A stretch of DNA of 39,660 nucleotides, taken from a virus. The notes below the pieces were generated by a model that was given only the letters and a program-made list of their open reading frames with translations, was not told the DNA's origin and did no database searches. Each line of letters begins with the position of its first letter. Positions within the stretch are counted from its first letter, which is position 1. A program made the position numbers and the translations under genes. Below, piece by piece: positions 20,151 through 28,005 of the stretch. The stretch is from positions 1-39,660 of IMG/VR virus record IMGVR_UViG_3300020470_000057. One strand, given 5' to 3'.

Positions 20151-22433
20151 CTAAACAGTATTTGTTTGTAATACTCTTATGTCTTCTTTCGAGACTATTG
20201 TTTTAGGTTCAGCTTTATTCAAAGCTATTAAAGTACCTTCGGTAAATACTTGTTTTAAAGCACTTAAATCTTCGGCAGTTAGACCACCACCACCAAAACC
20301 ACCACCAGTAGCACTTTGTACTGCTTGTGAATCGACTCCCATCACCAAGTCACCTTTACTAAATCTTAATGGAGGTTGTCCAGGTCTCAATACAAAGTCT
20401 TCCGCAGGTGCACCAGGTGCATTACCCCACATTCCCGCATCTCGAGCCACTATCGATGCATCCAACGCTAATGAAGCGGCAGTACCAGCTCCAGGTGCGA
20501 CAAGATTAAGTGCATTTGCACCGGCTGAAGCGAACTCCAATCCAGCACCTGCCCAATCACCTTTGATAGCTCTACCTACACCAGCAGCGACACCAACCAC
20601 ACTACCAAGAACTGGTACTTTCTTTAACCACTTACCAGCACCTTTGAACATTCCACCAATTTTACCAAATAAACCTTTACCTTTTGATAATAAACCACCT
20701 AAACCACTTTTCAAACCTTTAGCCATAGATGTAATTCCACCTTTTAGTCCTTTAGCTACATTACTCATAGTTTTTGAAAATGCTTTAGCTATACCTTTTG
20801 CTAAAAATTTAAGTTTGGAAGCCATCTTCATAAATCCAGCACCAATGAAAGGTAAGTTTTCACCAATCATAGCCAACCTTTCTCCTATTTTTGTAATTGA
20901 ACCAACTATTCCACCCTCACCATCTTCACCGGCTAACCAAGTATTCAACTTTTGAAATTCAGGAATTAATCCACTAGTTATTGTATCTTGCATATTCTTA
21001 ATAGCATTAGTAGTTTGAGTTACTCCACTTATAGCATTTTCAGCTTTGATGTCTTCAATGTTTGCTTTTGACATTTCTTCACCAGTAACTTTAGCCATAT
21101 TATTAACTTCACCTTGTTTGTTCATAAATTTGGATAATTCTGTTACTGATAATCCAATGGCACCTGCTAATGATTTTCTTTGTAATACATCTAATTTTGC
21201 AAATTCAGCTGCTCCACCTAATTGACCTACAACATCTTCTACAGCTCCACTAACATCACCTTGTAATGCTTTTTGTCTTGCAGTTTGAAAGTTAAGTTGT
21301 TTACCTATCATAACTGAAGCTTCAAATTCTTTATTAATTGAAGTTTCAATATCTAATAAACTATCAGTTATTTTTTCAACAGCGGCTAAATTAACACCAA
21401 ACTTTTTAGCATTGATAGCGGCAGTTAATATATTCTTACCACCATCTTTAGTATATTTAGCCATCATCTCTGAAGAGTTAGCTACATCTTTCATTACAAA
21501 TGAAGGAACTACTCCAGCTTGTTCTGCTAATGCGGTAGCCTGTTTTAAATAATCGTCTGTAATGTCTCTACTAACACCAGCAATTATTTCAAAATTCATT
21601 TTTAATTTAGCTGCTTCTGCACCACCGATACCTAAAGCTATTCCTAATTTTTCAGATTGAGCTGCTAAATTAATAGCCTCCATCGCACCCACACCTAACC
21701 CTTCAGCAATAGGTCCTATGTGTTGTTTAAACTTATCGTAATTTACATCAAGATGTGCACCTTCTTTATTTAATACAGAAACTCTTTCTTGAAGTTCTTT
21801 AGATTGAGTAGCCATATAACCAAAGTCTTGACCAATCATATCAGTAACTTTACTGAATCGAGTGAACATTTTAATTGCAAATGTTATCAAAGCAACAAGT
21901 ATAGTAAACGGATTCATTATAAATCCAACTATCGATTGTCCAATTCCACCCAATGCATTATCTAACGCTTTAGCATTGTCTACTTGACCTTTCAAAGCTT
22001 TTTCGGCCGCTTTCATATTATCAAGTATTTTTGCCCTTAATGGAACACCTTTTCTAATTTGATTTAATTGGTCTATCATTGATTTGGACATACTGTGGTC
22101 TTGACCTAAAAGCTTTTCTTTTATTTTTAATTTCATTTTTTGAAGTCCAAGACCTATCCTTCCTTTACCAATCATTTTTTCAGCTTCTTTTGCAAAAGCC
22201 GAATGTGATTTTTTATTTTTTTCGGAATATAGGGCACTATTAGACAATCCTTCTTCTACTTGTGCTATAGAACTGAACATAGCTTTGGCAGTAGTGTTCA
22301 TATCCTTAAACCCTTTGCCGGCTTCTGCAACTGTCTTACTGAAGTCTTGAACTTCTTTTAGTCCAGATACAGTATCCTTACCAAAAAGTTTGTGGTCTTT
22401 GGTTTGTCTACCTTTTTGTCCACCTATTTCCAC
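20151..22433 (-). CDS. Tail tape measure protein
   Basis: Predicted to set tail length and to occupy the tube lumen until DNA ejection. The 760 residues are Ala/Gly/Lys-rich and largely helical. There is a strong hydrophobic segment near 165-190 (GFIMNPFTILVALITFAIKM) and a Gly-rich stretch of small repeats near 570-670 (KGLKGGITSMAKGLKSG-type). The start is GTG 22433 with TAGGAGAACTTAA before it. Position fits: downstream of tube and gp26, upstream of baseplate genes. At roughly 1.5 angstrom per residue the length would suit a tail of about 110 nm, a family rule of thumb and not a measurement. Sequence similarity among tape measures is low, so the call rests on composition and context. Confidence 0.72.
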   Translation of the reverse strand: MEIGGQKGRQTKDHKLFGKDTVSGLKEVQDFSKTVAEAGKGFKDMNTTAKAMFSSIAQVEEGLSNSALYSEKNKKSHSAFAKEAEKMIGKGRIGLGLQKMKLKIKEKLLGQDHSMSKSMIDQLNQIRKGVPLRAKILDNMKAAEKALKGQVDNAKALDNALGGIGQSIVGFIMNPFTILVALITFAIKMFTRFSKVTDMIGQDFGYMATQSKELQERVSVLNKEGAHLDVNYDKFKQHIGPIAEGLGVGAMEAINLAAQSEKLGIALGIGGAEAAKLKMNFEIIAGVSRDITDDYLKQATALAEQAGVVPSFVMKDVANSSEMMAKYTKDGGKNILTAAINAKKFGVNLAAVEKITDSLLDIETSINKEFEASVMIGKQLNFQTARQKALQGDVSGAVEDVVGQLGGAAEFAKLDVLQRKSLAGAIGLSVTELSKFMNKQGEVNNMAKVTGEEMSKANIEDIKAENAISGVTQTTNAIKNMQDTITSGLIPEFQKLNTWLAGEDGEGGIVGSITKIGERLAMIGENLPFIGAGFMKMASKLKFLAKGIAKAFSKTMSNVAKGLKGGITSMAKGLKSGLGGLLSKGKGLFGKIGGMFKGAGKWLKKVPVLGSVVGVAAGVGRAIKGDWAGAGLEFASAGANALNLVAPGAGTAASLALDASIVARDAGMWGNAPGAPAEDFVLRPGQPPLRFSKGDLVMGVDSQAVQSATGGGFGGGGLTAEDLSALKQVFTEGTLIALNKAEPKTIVSKEDIRVLQTNTV

Positions 22434-22443
22434 TTAAGTTCTC

Positions 22444-22740
22444 CTATTTCCCACCAAATCGTTTTTCACCATAAGCTAATAAATCATCAAATGTATCACC
22501 TTTTGCAAGTTTTACACCAAATTCTTTATAAAATTTAGCGTCAAAATCTTGTCTCATTTTTTTATAATCTTTTTCTATTTTGGCTAATTTCTTTTTATCT
22601 TTGCCTATAGTTTTTTTAAGTTTGTTGTATTCTCTTTTTTTAGCAGCTGGACTATTAGGGGCAAATACAGACGCCATAAGGTCAAAAAATCCCTCATTGA
22701 GAATATTTGTTTGATTCATATATGATTTTTTCTTACGCAT
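22444..22740 (-). CDS. Small Lys-rich protein with LNE/G site, unknown
   Basis: The preferred start is ATG 22740, preceded by GGAGAAGACC; an in-frame ATG at 22770 has no ribosome site. The 98-residue product begins MRKKKSYMNQTNILNEGFFD. Residues ILNE followed by G match the T4 prohead protease rule (Leu/Ile-x-Glu, cut before Ala or Gly). The rest is a Lys-rich helix (about residues 33-70) that may form a coiled coil. It is the first gene behind a candidate late promoter and ends 11 bases before the tape measure start. It could be an internal head protein or a tape-measure partner; neither is proven. Confidence 0.6.
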   Translation of the reverse strand: MRKKKSYMNQTNILNEGFFDLMASVFAPNSPAAKKREYNKLKKTIGKDKKKLAKIEKDYKKMRQDFDAKFYKEFGVKLAKGDTFDDLLAYGEKRFGGK

Positions 22741-22765
22741 GGTCTTCTCCAAATACAAAGTTTTA

Positions 22766-22780
22766 TTCATATATAAATAT
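22766..22780 (-). promoter_or_regulatory. Candidate late promoter, tape-measure unit
   Basis: On the minus strand the element reads ATATTTATATATGAA, 25 bases before ATG 22740. It is the best match to a 15-base element found in four other gaps of the structural region. The opposite strand reads the T4 late box TATAAATA, so orientation is inferred from the genes it precedes. Confidence 0.5.
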
Positions 22781-22807: not shown

Positions 22808-22999
22808 TTAGTGTTTCTTTTTCATTTCCTTGTCCCAATGTTTCTTTTCTTCTTTACGAGTTTCAATCAATTCATTGATATAAAATCTTCGCAGGTAAAT
22901 GGGCATCTCATAGACATCGGTATGAGTAAACCCTTTACCATAATGTATTAAAGAAAAGATGTCTTGGTGAACTATCTTACGATGCTCTGGAGGTAGGCC
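22808..22999 (-). CDS. Out-of-frame C-terminal extension of gp26, probably made by +1 (or -2) ribosomal frameshift
   Basis: After a run of seven T in the gp26 reading (23000-23006), the +1 frame is open for 63 codons to TAA 22808-22810. In this frame a TGA lies about 12 bases before the T-run, and no ATG, GTG or TTG occurs until far into the ORF, so independent initiation of the whole segment is unlikely. The encoded segment is protein-like: it contains VYEMPIYLRRFYINELIETR and a charged helical tail. A shift at the T-run would give a 320-residue gp26 fusion instead of the 264-residue short form, whose zero-frame stop comes 8 codons later. This copies the layout of lambda G/GT-type tail assembly chaperones, which also lie between tube and tape measure genes. 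The slip itself is inference. Confidence 0.65.
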   Translation of the reverse strand, partial: GLPPEHRKIVHQDIFSLIHYGKGFTHTDVYEMPIYLRRFYINELIETRKEEKKHWDKEMKKKH

Positions 23000-23771
23000 A
23001 AAAAAAGTCTGCGGTCATTGGTATATCTACCGTGACCGCTTCTCCTTCTATTTCTACTTCTTGTTTCAATTCAATATCTGGAGTTATTTCTGACACCCTT
23101 TGACGAAGAGCCAATGAGTCCCTCGATAACATATTTTGAGCATAAGCATTTATAACCTGTTGTTCATTCGAACCATTAACAGATGTTATAAGATGTTTTA
23201 ATCGTGTTGTAACTTCTCTCGTAGTTCCAACACCGATTTTTTGCATTGATTTCAATTCATCATCTATTCTTTTTTCATCTTGACCATTTAATATTTTAAA
23301 TGTAATTTTATCTTTAGATGCAGGTAATTCTAATTCAAATTCATTTTTTGAATAATCTACCTCTGGTAATGATTTGTAATCAATAGCAGACAAATCAAAT
23401 GTATGTTCAAATCTCTCTTCAGTAGTAGGGTTAGTCAATTCAACTGAATATTCAGGTCCGTAAGCTAGTATTCTAACTGCTATCATAATAGCATTTTTAT
23501 CTCCCAAAAACAAATCATCTATATTAACTCCTGGTGTTGATATTAAAGACGAAAGTAATGTATCAACAACTACACCTTTTTTAATAAGGTTCTGTGATGT
23601 AAGGATATCCTCTTCTTTAGCAGTCATATACTTAACTTCTATCTTTCCATCTCTACAAGGATGTCCCTCTGGATATAATTTACCACCACTCGGTAAATCA
23701 ATTATCTCTGTTGGGAATTTTGCTTCTGTCTTTGGTGCACCTTGAGTGCTTTGATTTTTTGGCTCAGCCAT
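22977..23771 (-). CDS. gp26: gp26-like baseplate hub / tail assembly protein
   Basis: The 264-residue product has the T4 gp26-type start of the conserved domain: EIIDLPSGGKLYPEGHPCRD at about residues 22-41, then IEVKYMTAKEEDILTSQNLIKKG, then DDLFLGDKNAIMIAVRILAYG. In many relatives a Cys-x2-Cys follows this point; here the equivalent stretch (LTNPTTEERFEHTFDL) has no cysteine. T4 gp26 is needed for baseplate hub assembly. The position between the tube and tape measure genes, and a frameshift-ready T-run eight codons before the stop, suggest an assembly-chaperone role like lambda gpG. ATG 23771 follows GGAGG. It follows the H1-like gene in the unit that begins with the lysozyme. Confidence 0.75.
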   Translation of the reverse strand: MAEPKNQSTQGAPKTEAKFPTEIIDLPSGGKLYPEGHPCRDGKIEVKYMTAKEEDILTSQNLIKKGVVVDTLLSSLISTPGVNIDDLFLGDKNAIMIAVRILAYGPEYSVELTNPTTEERFEHTFDLSAIDYKSLPEVDYSKNEFELELPASKDKITFKILNGQDEKRIDDELKSMQKIGVGTTREVTTRLKHLITSVNGSNEQQVINAYAQNMLSRDSLALRQRVSEITPDIELKQEVEIEGEAVTVDIPMTADFFWPTSRAS

Positions 23772-23789: not shown

Positions 23790-23975
23790 TTATGATTTTG
23801 ATTCAGCTACTGATGCTTGTCTGTAGGATGTAACCAATTTTTTAATTTCACCGATAGCCTTTCTTGCTCGACCACCTGCAGCTTTTGTACCTTTATTTAC
23901 AAATTTCTTATGATTTTCTTGAAAATCTTCAAAACATGCTTCTATTTGTTCGTATAATTCATTACTACTTGCCAT
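23790..23975 (-). CDS. Small histone H1-like (Hc1-type) protein
   Basis: The 61-residue product has a helical N-terminal half (LYEQIEACFEDFQENHKKF) and the stretch GTKAAGGRARKAIGEIKKLV followed by SYRQASVAESKS. It resembles short Hc1/H1-like proteins in which a helical pair carries RARK and Y-R-x2-S motifs. Such proteins bind DNA without sequence preference and could compact phage or host DNA. The net charge is only mildly positive, and the gene lies between the lysozyme and gp26 rather than near DNA-packaging genes, so a structural role is possible. ATG 23975 follows GGAGATAAGTT. Confidence 0.5.
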   Translation of the reverse strand: MASSNELYEQIEACFEDFQENHKKFVNKGTKAAGGRARKAIGEIKKLVTSYRQASVAESKS

Positions 23976-23993: not shown

Positions 23994-24479
23994 TTAAACT
24001 TCTATTGCTCTACGATACCACCCTAACCAAAATTTCTCTTGATTTGGTTTATCTATTACTATGTTTGCAAATCGTAACACACGATATGCTCTCACTCTCT
24101 CTACACTCAATTTCTGTATAGAGCCCAATGTAGCTGGTCCTAAACCACCATCTACATCAATTTTGTTTCTGTTTTTAGAATTAGCAGCTTGTTGTAAAAC
24201 CTTAACAGCTCCTCTCCTACCAAAATTAACACACATATCAAAATAAATATGCCTTAATTGTGGAGGAATTTCATCACACTTACCTCGTCTCCAATAGTCT
24301 GTATGATATATTTTTTTAGCTTGTTCTTTTGTTAGATTTTTTATGTCCACATCAGGATACCATCTTTTGGCTATTCCGTATTTGGTCTCACCACCGGCAT
24401 CATCAGGGTCATTCACATAACCACCTTCGTGTTCTAAAACTATTTCTATTATTTCATTAAATGTTGTTAATTTTGACAT
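23994..24479 (-). CDS. GH108-family lysozyme (N-acetylmuramidase)
   Basis: A peptidoglycan-cleaving enzyme with the GH108 signature EHEGGYVNDPDDAGGETKYG near residues 16-35, where E18 is the likely catalytic acid. AKKIYHTDYWRRGKCDEIP follows. The C-terminal part (KIDVDGGLGPATLGSIQKLS) is the peptidoglycan-binding type 3 half that normally completes this family. Its 161 residues are a usual length. No signal peptide or membrane anchor is seen and no holin gene is recognised nearby. Its place between tube and gp26 would suit either the cytoplasmic endolysin or a virion-associated enzyme. A candidate late promoter lies 24 bases upstream, and the ribosome site is AGAGGT. Confidence 0.88.
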   Translation of the reverse strand: MSKLTTFNEIIEIVLEHEGGYVNDPDDAGGETKYGIAKRWYPDVDIKNLTKEQAKKIYHTDYWRRGKCDEIPPQLRHIYFDMCVNFGRRGAVKVLQQAANSKNRNKIDVDGGLGPATLGSIQKLSVERVRAYRVLRFANIVIDKPNQEKFWLGWYRRAIEV

Positions 24480-24590: not shown

Positions 24591-25079
24591 TTAGAACTGA
24601 AGTATTGCGTAATCATATCTCAATGTTAATGATATTTCCACAGGGTCACTTGAAGCCATATCCAAATCACCAAAGGTAACATCTTGACACCAAGCACCTT
24701 TTAACTTCCACTCTTCTACTATATCACCAACAGGTCCTAACACTTGAAATGTTACATCTTTTTTATAGAAATCGGAATATCCGTCTCTACCTGTTACTGA
24801 TTCGTGTGATAATCTTACCCATTCCATAACTGCTTGTGAGGCTGATGGAACAACAGGGTCATATAATGTTATTCCGAGTGTTTGCCAAGCACCTTTTCCT
24901 TTTACATATCTCTTTACATTCATATGTTCAAGAGTAACTTCTTCAAATGTTATTTGTGGTCTATTTGCAGTCTTAACTAAATATGCAGGTATACCATCAA
25001 TTTGCATAAGATATCTATTCTTGAGTTTCGGCTCAAAGGGTGTAAACATTACATCATTTGCATCTACTAATTTTGCCAT
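24591..25079 (-). CDS. gp19: Tail tube protein gp19
   Basis: Inner tube subunit that stacks in hexameric rings inside the sheath. The 162-residue length matches T4 gp19 (163). The N-terminal pattern PKLKNRYLMQIDGIPAYLVK, then RPQITFEEVTLEHMNVKRYV, GAWQTLGITLYDPV, and the closing VTFGDLDMASSDPVEISLTL with LRYDYAILQF fit the tube beta-barrel family closely. GGAGAATTAAA precedes ATG 25079. It is flanked by terminators on both sides and has its own upstream late element, so it appears to be a separate one-gene transcription unit. That suits the high copy number of the protein. Confidence 0.92.
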   Translation of the reverse strand: MAKLVDANDVMFTPFEPKLKNRYLMQIDGIPAYLVKTANRPQITFEEVTLEHMNVKRYVKGKGAWQTLGITLYDPVVPSASQAVMEWVRLSHESVTGRDGYSDFYKKDVTFQVLGPVGDIVEEWKLKGAWCQDVTFGDLDMASSDPVEISLTLRYDYAILQF

Positions 25080-25218: not shown

Positions 25219-28005
25219 TTATTCAGGAAATGTAGCACCTGTAGGTAATACTACAAAGTCTAGAACTATAAATTCAGCTGTTCTTGCAGGTTGAATGAAT
25301 ATCTGTCCTCTCAACTCGTTCCTATCAACAACATCAGGAGTATTGTTTGTTTCATCCATTACAACTCTAAATGCAGTTAAACCACTATTAGATTGTACAG
25401 ATTCCATATAAGGATTAACAATATTCAAGAATCTATTTCTTGTAGCTGAAGTATTTTGTTCAAATACAAGGAATCTTGAAGAAGAAGCAATAAATTTCCT
25501 TAATGCTATTAATAATCTTCTTACATTGATTCTATCAAGTGCTGATGGTTTTGCTTGGAGTGTTTTTTGACCCCATATACAAACACCCTCACCTGGGAAT
25601 GTTGCGATTGGATTAACTCTACCTTCGTAAAGTGTATCTCTTTCAGAATGAGTTAATCTATCTTTAGCCATAAGAACTTCGTTTAGTCCACCACGATTTA
25701 AACCAGCTGGTGCAAACCATGGGTGAGAGACTTTATCTGTAAAAGCGATAACACCAGGAACTACAACTGAAGGTGGCACCCATACATGTTTATTATTTTC
25801 ATCATCTACTATCTTAACCCATGGGTAATAAGTAGAAGCGAAGTTTGTATCTTCTGCCTGTACAGATGACACTGCTGTTGCTATTGTACCATTATACCCA
25901 TCAGAGTCGAATGGGAAGAATACATCACCCCTATCTTCTACTTTATCTCTTGTATAAGTATAAATCGCACCGTGTTCAGTTTTTGAAATTCCAGGAGTTA
26001 CTATCATATTGATATCAATTTCATCTGGATTTGATACTGTAGCTACCGCATTTTTAAATGCAGTTTGACCACCGGATGTCAATGGTTGTGAATGACCTAA
26101 ACCATAATTAACTCCGTCATTACTTGGACCTCCCCAAAATCTTGGGTCAAATCCATCAGTTCCGCCTTGGAAACCAAGAATAAATTTCTTATGTTCCAAT
26201 GAAGCAGTAACTGACAATCCACAATCACTTAAACTAAAGTCAGATGCTGTTACTGCTGATGTCACTGTTGATGGTAAAGCTGATAAGTAAGGTAATATGT
26301 CTTTCGCATATCCTGTTTTTTCAGTTGAACCACTATCAAAAGCTACTCCCATATGTTCTTTAGAATTATAATCACCAGCTCCACTTCCACTTTGACTAAA
26401 TTTCAATGGTATGTCTGTTGATACATCACCAGCATCACATTCAACTGGGAATGAATATTTTCCAAATCCAAATGGGACAACATCAGTACCGAGAGTTCCA
26501 TTATTTAAATTAGAATTTATCGTATCATTAGCTATTCTAATATATTTAGATTGAACTGGATAATCACCAGTAACATCAATCTTCAATGTATTAGTGTTAA
26601 ATGTTTCTTTTTGGTCACCTATTCTTCTAACCACAAAGTTAGGAGAATCAGGGTCTAAATTACAACCAGCATATGTTTCAAATGCTACTGGTCGTCTATC
26701 CGTATCATCAAATTGTCTAACAATAACATCAAATGAACCATAGTCAGAACCTGCTACATCACCAGCTTTCTTAATATTAGCAATAGCGATTTTACATTCT
26801 CTATTTGAAGCGTCTCCGTGAGATAATGTTTCAAATTTAAATAGGTTTATTTTACCTGATGTATTTCCAGAAGTTGCTCTACCTGTTCCAATAGCTCCAT
26901 CTGGTTGACTTTGAATATAAGGTGTTCTTGCATAATGTGAAGCATATCCACCATAAGCAGAAGTTTCTGTACTTAAGGTTAATGGGTCACTTGCACTTAA
27001 TTTATCAGCTGCACTTTTGAATATCATATGAACATATCCAGGATAAGAATGAGTAGGAGTTGCTCCTACACCTAATACATTACCAATATAATTTGCATCT
27101 CCACTATTCAATGACATTGATGGTGAAAAATCATTATTTTTCCATTTGATACCAAAATTACCAGCTGTAAATTCTTCACCAACTACTGTAGAAGCAAATG
27201 TTCCATCAGATGATGTTGGGAATATAGCCGCGTATACATTTTGATTTGCACCATTCACACCACCATTTACACCCAATTGACCATATAATCCACCATATAC
27301 ATAATTAGCCGCAGAAGATGCAGATAGTGTAAATCCTACCGAACCATCAAGAGAACCTGTAGTAAAACTGAATGAGCCAGTTGAACCAGCAGTTGCAGCT
27401 GAGTGTGATACGGTTAAAACATGTACGAACTGAGCATTACTGTGTTGTGCCCAATTACCAATTTCACTCGCAGCTAACGAAGATGTATTGATTGCACCTA
27501 TGAATTTTTGAGCTAAAGTTGTTGCTGCAGTTACACTTGCACCATCAACATAAAAGTCTGTATCTGTATTCGGTGATAGTGGAGCTGTATCTATTATAAA
27601 TCTATAAGTTGTTCCACTAGTTCCAGTAATAGAAATAAAATCTCCATCTGCACCTGTACCACCCAACGCTAAAGACCCAGTAGAACCTACTCCAGCTGTA
27701 CCAGAACCTTTAATTAATATAGCTTCTGTTGCTGTGTATCCTTCTGTTCCTAAAACTCTAACAATGGTAGCAGTACCGGCATTTTTTAAATAACTCTTTG
27801 CAGTATATGGTAAAAAATGTTTTGTATCTAAACCACCAAACTTTAATGTAAAATCTGAATAAGAATCCACTTTCGTTGGAACGAAAGCCGGTCCCTTATT
27901 ACATGTACCAATTAGTGCCGCACCCAGATTTGAGATGGCGGCTGGTAAAAACGACTGGTCTATCTCATTTGTAAATACACCAGGACTAACTACTCTTTCT
28001 GCCAT
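25219..28005 (-). CDS. gp18: Contractile tail sheath protein gp18
   Basis: Forms the contractile outer tail. The start VVSPGVFTNEIDQSF is typical of sheath proteins, as are RLLIALRKFIASSSRFLVFE and FNTNTLKIDV. The C-terminal third has WVPPSVVVPGVIAFTDK, then HPWFAPAGLNRGGL, FPGEGVCIWGQKTL and RNRFLNIVNPYMESV, the conserved handshake and tube-contact region. At 928 residues it is far longer than T4 gp18 (659). The extra length is in the Ser/Thr/Gly-rich region at about residues 100-300, with SAS- and GSTGS-type sequences like surface-exposed beta domains. GGAGAAATATA precedes ATG 28005. A strong terminator follows. Confidence 0.92.
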   Translation of the reverse strand: MAERVVSPGVFTNEIDQSFLPAAISNLGAALIGTCNKGPAFVPTKVDSYSDFTLKFGGLDTKHFLPYTAKSYLKNAGTATIVRVLGTEGYTATEAILIKGSGTAGVGSTGSLALGGTGADGDFISITGTSGTTYRFIIDTAPLSPNTDTDFYVDGASVTAATTLAQKFIGAINTSSLAASEIGNWAQHSNAQFVHVLTVSHSAATAGSTGSFSFTTGSLDGSVGFTLSASSAANYVYGGLYGQLGVNGGVNGANQNVYAAIFPTSSDGTFASTVVGEEFTAGNFGIKWKNNDFSPSMSLNSGDANYIGNVLGVGATPTHSYPGYVHMIFKSAADKLSASDPLTLSTETSAYGGYASHYARTPYIQSQPDGAIGTGRATSGNTSGKINLFKFETLSHGDASNRECKIAIANIKKAGDVAGSDYGSFDVIVRQFDDTDRRPVAFETYAGCNLDPDSPNFVVRRIGDQKETFNTNTLKIDVTGDYPVQSKYIRIANDTINSNLNNGTLGTDVVPFGFGKYSFPVECDAGDVSTDIPLKFSQSGSGAGDYNSKEHMGVAFDSGSTEKTGYAKDILPYLSALPSTVTSAVTASDFSLSDCGLSVTASLEHKKFILGFQGGTDGFDPRFWGGPSNDGVNYGLGHSQPLTSGGQTAFKNAVATVSNPDEIDINMIVTPGISKTEHGAIYTYTRDKVEDRGDVFFPFDSDGYNGTIATAVSSVQAEDTNFASTYYPWVKIVDDENNKHVWVPPSVVVPGVIAFTDKVSHPWFAPAGLNRGGLNEVLMAKDRLTHSERDTLYEGRVNPIATFPGEGVCIWGQKTLQAKPSALDRINVRRLLIALRKFIASSSRFLVFEQNTSATRNRFLNIVNPYMESVQSNSGLTAFRVVMDETNNTPDVVDRNELRGQIFIQPARTAEFIVLDFVVLPTGATFPE

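Follow-up and report, generated by a model that had tools for sequence, protein, structure and literature searches.

The gp26 gene of a marine phage, a myovirus (IMG/VR record IMGVR_UViG_3300020470_000057), very probably codes for a tail assembly chaperone in two lengths, the longer of which would be made by a +1 ribosomal frameshift at a run of seven U (U7). The shift, its efficiency and direction, and the roles of the two products are what we infer here, from the window itself and from a comparison with related phages. The window is the whole 39,660-nt stretch of DNA that was analyzed, and all features of it described below lie on the minus strand.

The gp26 gene and its +1-frame segment

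In frame 0, gp26 (positions 22977 to 23771) encodes a protein of 264 amino acids that matches PF12322 (T4_baseplate) and phrog_150 and is the putative short chaperone (TAC-N, or "G"). The 3' end of the gene reads ATG ACC GCA GAC TTT TTT TGG CCT ACC TCC AGA GCA TCG TAA and specifies the C terminus DFFWPTSRAS*, with nine codons from the first Phe codon to the stop codon (22977 to 22979) and seven sense codons (WPTSRAS) after both Phe codons. The first-pass annotation had noted that gp26 reaches seven T at 23000 to 23006 and ends soon after, and this is the case, on the minus strand, which had not been given; the plus strand shows the run at 23006 to 23000 as AAAAAAA. Between two stop codons, the +1 frame is open over 68 codons (23014 to 22808) and encodes FFGLPPEHRKIVHQDIFSLIHYGKGFTHTDVYEMPIYLRRFYINELIETRKEEKKHWDKEMKKKH. 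Of these codons, 63 come after the T run, and together with the stop codon they form the +1-frame segment (22808 to 22999; TAC-C, the putative "T" domain). The position of the shift is bounded on one side by the frame-0 stop codon and on the other by the last upstream stop codon of the +1 frame (23015 to 23017), which does lie close to the run, at a distance of 8 bases and not of about 12 as previously given. From this upstream stop through codon +30, the +1 frame contains no ATG, GTG, or TTG, in line with the earlier remark that the segment has no start codon, and its first ATG falls midway in the conserved segment. When one base is skipped in translation, the predicted fusion (22811 to 23771; TAC-NC, or "GT") has 320 amino acids, exactly the length anticipated. 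Its junction would read DFFGLPP (...TADFFGLPPEHR) after a +1 shift and DFFFGLPP, with an extra Phe (...TADFFFGLPPEHR), after a −2 shift.

The gene order in the window is sheath, tube, gp26, T, tape measure, in agreement with the original placement of gp26 between the tube and tape measure genes. The tail sheath (25219 to 28005; phrog_23, 4.5e-74) and tail tube (24591 to 25079; phrog_4542, 2e-31) genes lie upstream and were recognized by their phrog matches. The probable tape measure protein (20151 to 22433; 760 amino acids) is assigned by its downstream position, and no informative family match of its own was found for it; the annotated tape measure gene comes after the T segment in Flavobacterium phage immuto, Bacillus phage SP-15, and Listeria phage LIS04. 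The same block contains an endolysin-like domain (23994 to 24479; phrog_315, 2e-48) between the tail tube gene and gp26, and a 108-amino-acid lysine-rich protein with no family match (22444 to 22770), which separates the T segment from the probable tape measure gene. Just upstream of gp26, a 61-amino-acid protein (23790 to 23975) matches the whole of the Pfam domain Hc1, which is histone H1-like (PF07432; E 7e-18), an unusual match within a tail gene block.

In the mechanism that we propose, most ribosomes would stay in frame 0 and end seven codons past the two Phe codons, giving the 264-amino-acid protein. At the shift site, GAC TTT TTT T(GG) (23000 to 23006), the P-site Phe codon UUU is followed in the sequence by one further U on its 3' side, and the frame-0 A-site codon is UGG (Trp; 22998 to 23000), a putative pause. 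In a minority of ribosomes, tRNA-Phe would occupy the P site on the second UUU while UGG waits in the A site, and the P-site tRNA would slip one base forward (UUU U to U UUU), with GGC being read next. The product would be the 320-amino-acid protein, extended by a mainly helical T domain of 63 residues. If the two forms act as lambda G and GT do, the short one may coat the tape measure protein, and tube subunits may be recruited by the T domain of the longer one.

Conservation of the layout and selection on both frames

A scan of IMG/VR with gp26 as the query returned 80 loci with 46 to 66% identity, and annotated phages were added, namely Microcystis phage Mel-JY01, immuto, SP-15, LIS04, Streptococcus phage GXN1, Rhodothermus phage RM378, and two uncultured jumbo phages. 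The site set consisted of 81 sequences (the window and 80 relatives) in which sites were located by motif; three loci whose frame-0 end was missing or not located were left out. Conservation of the T run and of the downstream +1 frame had been suggested as a check, and the out-of-frame +1 layout was common to all 81 sequences. The +1 segment, 62 to 106 codons long, was open in all 77 sequences in which the contig reaches the segment end, and in the 4 contig-truncated sequences it was open up to the contig end, so that the random stops that would have spoken for a chance frame were found in none of the 81. The probability of a 62-codon open stretch in composition-shuffled sequence is about 0.006, and in the third reading frame the median open stretch after the run was only 7 codons. 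Frame 0 stopped 5 to 9 codons past the first Phe codon, and conservation continued across the FFGL junction. Ten loci in bacterial and archaeal genome assemblies, which are probably phage or prophage contigs, repeat the layout. Judged by these sequences, the +1 branch appears to span marine environmental phages and phages of Microcystis, Bacillus, Listeria, Streptococcus, Flavobacterium, and Rhodothermus.

The +1 segment evolves under purifying selection. Its dN/dS ratio, which had been expected to be low among relatives, was 0.02 to 0.30 in close pairs, pN was lower than pS in 99% of 2922 pairs, and substitutions concentrated at the third positions of the +1 frame (2844 versus 1476 and 850). 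The slip codons themselves are also biased. At the two slip codons, Phe was encoded by TTT in 156 cases and by TTC in 2 (156/158), compared with 648 TTT and 156 TTC (648/804) in the body of the gp26 gene; the Fisher value for this preference (4e-11) overstates its strength because the counts take related sequences as independent, though the direction is still plain.

The shift site, its direction, and alternative explanations

The shift site was TTTTTTTGG in 62 of the 81 sequences, TTTTTTTAC in 11, and a variant in 8. TTTTTTT was present in 75 sites, the remaining variants still permit +1 re-pairing, and the codon after the two slip codons was invariably TGG, TAC, or TTC (81/81). The base preceding the run was never T (0/81), as opposed to 37% T at the third positions of the gene, and base 7 of the run was T in 81/81 sites, in part because frame 0 keeps a conserved aromatic residue there, which counts against the +1 reading. 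Re-pairing was tested by allowing Watson-Crick or G-U pairs at the first base, strict pairing at the second, and wobble at the third, and the sites of SP-15, LIS04, and RM378 were assessed by eye. Under these rules, +1 re-pairing was possible at 81/81 sites and −2 re-pairing at 78/81. Sites that re-pair for +1 and not for −2 are those of the loci L002 and L037 (TTC TTT T) and of GXN1 (TTC TTT C), as well as that of the locus L075 (TTTTTATGG; TTT TTA T), where the shift would take place at the first Phe codon. The locus L077 and immuto carry the variant site CTT TGG. For LIS04 (TTTTTTAGT), a +1 shift is compatible with the site at the first Phe codon only, and this was counted against our main reading. 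A +1 or −2 slip had initially been proposed for gp26; the off-frame layout holds, and +1 is favored over −2 since four sites (L002, L037, L075, and GXN1) allow only +1.

On the T4/cyanophage side, the corresponding sequence is T TTT TTC or T TTT TTT, both of them classic −1 heptamers. The register of the T run is offset by one base between the −1 and +1 branches. A fully supported branch (100/99) separates the two directions in a tree of G domains. Only the jumbo phage LR756511 departs from this: with T TTT TTC and a −1 segment, it sits at the base of the +1 side, together with a bacterial protein whose branch is very long. We consider it likely that sister branches of a single chaperone family use opposite shifts at the same junction, −1 (or, in T4, gene duplication) on the T4/cyanophage side and +1 in the branch of the window, and that a difference of one base in the register of the U run (bases 0 to 6 versus bases 1 to 7) determines the direction. 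The exceptional phage (locus L088; LR756511.1) has a genome of 595 kb, with its T segment in the −1 frame. In two cyanophage relatives (loci L128 and L129), the T run is replaced at the same place by A AAT TTT, another canonical −1 heptamer.

A universal stem-loop after the run was sought over the 81 sites and was not found (mean z, −0.55); no strong structure followed the run in the window, where the signal was weak, or in most relatives. Nine sequences from two lineages have in common a 7-bp stem that starts 4 nt after the run and has a 9-nt loop, which in most of them holds or touches the frame-0 stop codon. The covariation of this stem was 0.468, compared with 0.142 in shuffled sequences and at most 0.111 when the stem was slid. 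In eight other sequences, a shared 7-bp stem with a loop of 4 nt begins 6 nt past the run. Paired cells amounted to 95% in the nine-sequence stem and 100% in the eight-sequence stem, percentages that are inflated because both stems were picked from the sequences scored, and two-sided changes, which are unaffected by this choice, occurred at four and three pairs, respectively. As most relatives and the window have neither stem, the base signal would consist of the run and the A-site codon.

The same chaperone pair could also be obtained by a −2 slip, as in phage Mu, in which case the fusion gains one more Phe. A move from UUU to UUU two bases back is feasible at most sites, and the stems 4 to 6 nt past the run in some clades resemble stimulators of backward shifts; however, the four sites named above re-pair for +1 only, under the pairing rules used, and the stems begin 2 to 4 nt past the waiting A-site codon, which is also compatible with +1 sites. 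Antizyme is a +1 site whose stimulator spacing such stems would fit. We therefore regard a −2 slip as improbable. It is more doubtful by a good measure that RNA polymerase adds or drops bases in the T run and that the edited RNA is read in one frame. T homopolymers are generally known as slippage sites in bacteria, but a run of seven bases is short for this process, and transcriptional slippage is disfavored because sites with an interrupted run, namely TTCTTTTGG, TTTCTTTGG, TTTCTATTC, and TTCTTTC, retain the layout.

A slightly smaller probability still attaches to the view that the +1 segment is a separate small gene, with its own start or translated by re-initiation, in the way that cyanophage "gp51" has been annotated. 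An ATG often lies directly past the gp26 stop codon in −1-frame relatives, and gp51 is annotated apart in the S-PM2 and HTVC008M records. Relatives with a start codon of their own for the segment had been named as evidence against a frameshift, but the conserved segment has no ATG, GTG, or TTG upstream of it in the window and in 44 of its 80 relatives. Against a separate gene also speak the position of the first ATG of the window, the conservation that spans the junction, and the natural in-frame fusion of both parts in T4 gp51 and in bacterial DUF6760 proteins (loci L155 and L156). As for a one-T sequencing or assembly error, which had been raised at the outset, or a decaying gene, a seven-base homopolymer is error-prone on some platforms, but the same phase recurs in 81/81 records from independent assemblies and isolates, with the 80 other records including the isolates Mel-JY01 and immuto, and the segment is under purifying selection; this explanation is hardly credible for the window and is refuted for the family as a whole.

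The G and T domains and their relation to known tail chaperones

Residues 25 to 257 of gp26 match positions 8 to 218 of the PF12322 profile with 34.8 bits (curated cutoff, 24.5), and phrog_150 was matched by 45/45 fusions scanned. A direct hhalign comparison of the G alignment of the window family with T4 gp26 gave a weak match, and the gp26 profile of the −1 branch links both. T4 gp26 and gp51 are both full PF12322 proteins, with gp51 bearing an extra C-terminal tail in frame, and Campylobacter phage CPX has two PF12322 genes like T4, the second with an in-frame tail. The T-domain profile matches the −1-frame segment of cyanophages (hhalign probability, 94; E 1.6e-7), which in turn matches the in-frame C terminus of T4 gp51 (probability, 96; E 2e-9); the −1-frame segments compared were those of S-PM2, P-SSM2, HTVC008M, Cr30, phiM12, and KVP40. 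Comparing the profile of the +1 T segments directly with the T4 gp51 C terminus gave no significant match (probability, 6), so that the homology of the T domain to T4 gp51 runs via the −1 branch. The PHROG "baseplate hub assembly catalyst" (gp51) was matched by 7/54 T segments, with a best E value of 0.0016. Cyanophage gp51 is annotated as a separate protein of about 57 amino acids, and the absence of the first ~200 residues from cyanophage and vibriophage gp51 had been described (Sullivan et al. 2010, PMC3037559). Given the T-domain homology to the T4 gp51 C terminus, cyanophage "gp51" is most readily taken as the distal part of a frameshift product.

The G and T parts were modeled apart. The AlphaFold2 model of the G domain had a pLDDT of 90 and a pTM of 0.84, and its best PDB match was the tail assembly chaperone of HK97 (2OB9), a weak match (Z, 4.8; rmsd, 5.5 Å over 95 residues) followed by an unrelated chain at Z 3.2; this is suggestive but not proof. 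Three helices were predicted for the T segment (pLDDT, 90), a fold search with this domain among viral structures gave chance-level matches only, and a sequence search of solved structures gave no match. A further relationship is suggested by a weak profile match between T segments and DUF6760 (PF20546), which, judged by sequence, appears to be the T domain of a chaperone for contractile tails in bacteria. Unlike gp26, the proteins of two Bacteroidota genomes (L155, 859 to 1623; L156, 859 to 1623) have DUF6760 joined in frame, with no shift, behind a CxxC-pair domain ending in QSFF. In the locus L154 (G077 contig 54, minus strand), the DUF6760 segment is in another frame and shares about 16 bases with the end of the ORF upstream, a possible frameshift in a bacterial system.

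Because of the homology to T4 gp26/gp51, the gene order, and the weak best fold match to the HK97 chaperone, gp26 is most likely a chaperone of the G/GT type, as the first-pass annotation had supposed, with the fusion as a predicted product. The role is made likely by the gene order, by the absence of gp51 from T4 virions (PMC3004832), and by the published naming of gp26 and gp51 as chaperones. Lambda G/GT uses a −1 frameshift and exemplifies the general TAC-N/TAC-NC pattern (Xu, Hendrix, and Duda 2004; reviewed in PMC5009743). Like lambda G/GT, gp26 would give a short chaperone and a rarer frameshift-extended form encoded between the tube and tape measure genes; unlike it, gp26 would shift into the +1 frame, and the two have no detectable sequence relation and a weak link in fold, through the HK97 chaperone. 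With gp26/gp51 of T4-like phages, in contrast, the window shares a homologous G domain (PF12322) and T domain. Cyanophages, Pelagibacter phage HTVC008M, Cr30, phiM12, and KVP40 differ from the window in that their T domain follows T TTT TTC/T in the −1 frame, and T4 differs from the +1 branch in having two full genes.

The +1 site of RF2 (prfB) is CUU UGA. As proposed for gp26, its P-site tRNA slips one base forward onto UUU at a slow A site, and at the CTT TGG sites of L077 and immuto the P-site slip would be identical to that of RF2. Unlike RF2, the A site of gp26 holds a sense codon, not a stop codon, and no autoregulation is suggested. The +1 frame is also reached in tail genes of Mu (by −2), of the haloarchaeal myovirus HSTV-2 (very likely by +1), and of the Listeria phages PSA, A118, and A500 (by +1) (PMC5009743). 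The Listeria genes, unlike gp26, are those of the major tail protein, with the shift taking place on CCC ahead of UGA, and none of these cases is known as a U7 site in a gp26 homologue.

The G/GT principle is thus already known, as are the presence of such chaperones in T4-like phages, some of which (such as T4) make them from two genes, and the poly-T −1 sites in T4-like chaperone genes. A 2016 review still gave T4 as the exception (PMC5009743), and gp26/gp51 were identified as the chaperones of T4-like phages by Vladimirov, Gautam, and Davidson in 2022 (as cited in PMC12846349 and PMC10885494). The initial remark that such a slip is not described for T4 relatives must be narrowed accordingly: chaperone genes of T4-like phages were published in 2022, and it is the +1 direction that looks new. 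By the account of the 2022 study in these citing papers, the +1 branch and its breadth are apparently new, as are the register switch and the covarying stems.

Two lengths of chaperone are a common requirement of long-tailed phages, which usually obtain them by a −1 shift. A whole branch with +1 shifting at U7 and a sense codon in the A site would constitute a large natural data set on working +1 sites, and the one-base change in register would offer a testable switch of shift direction.
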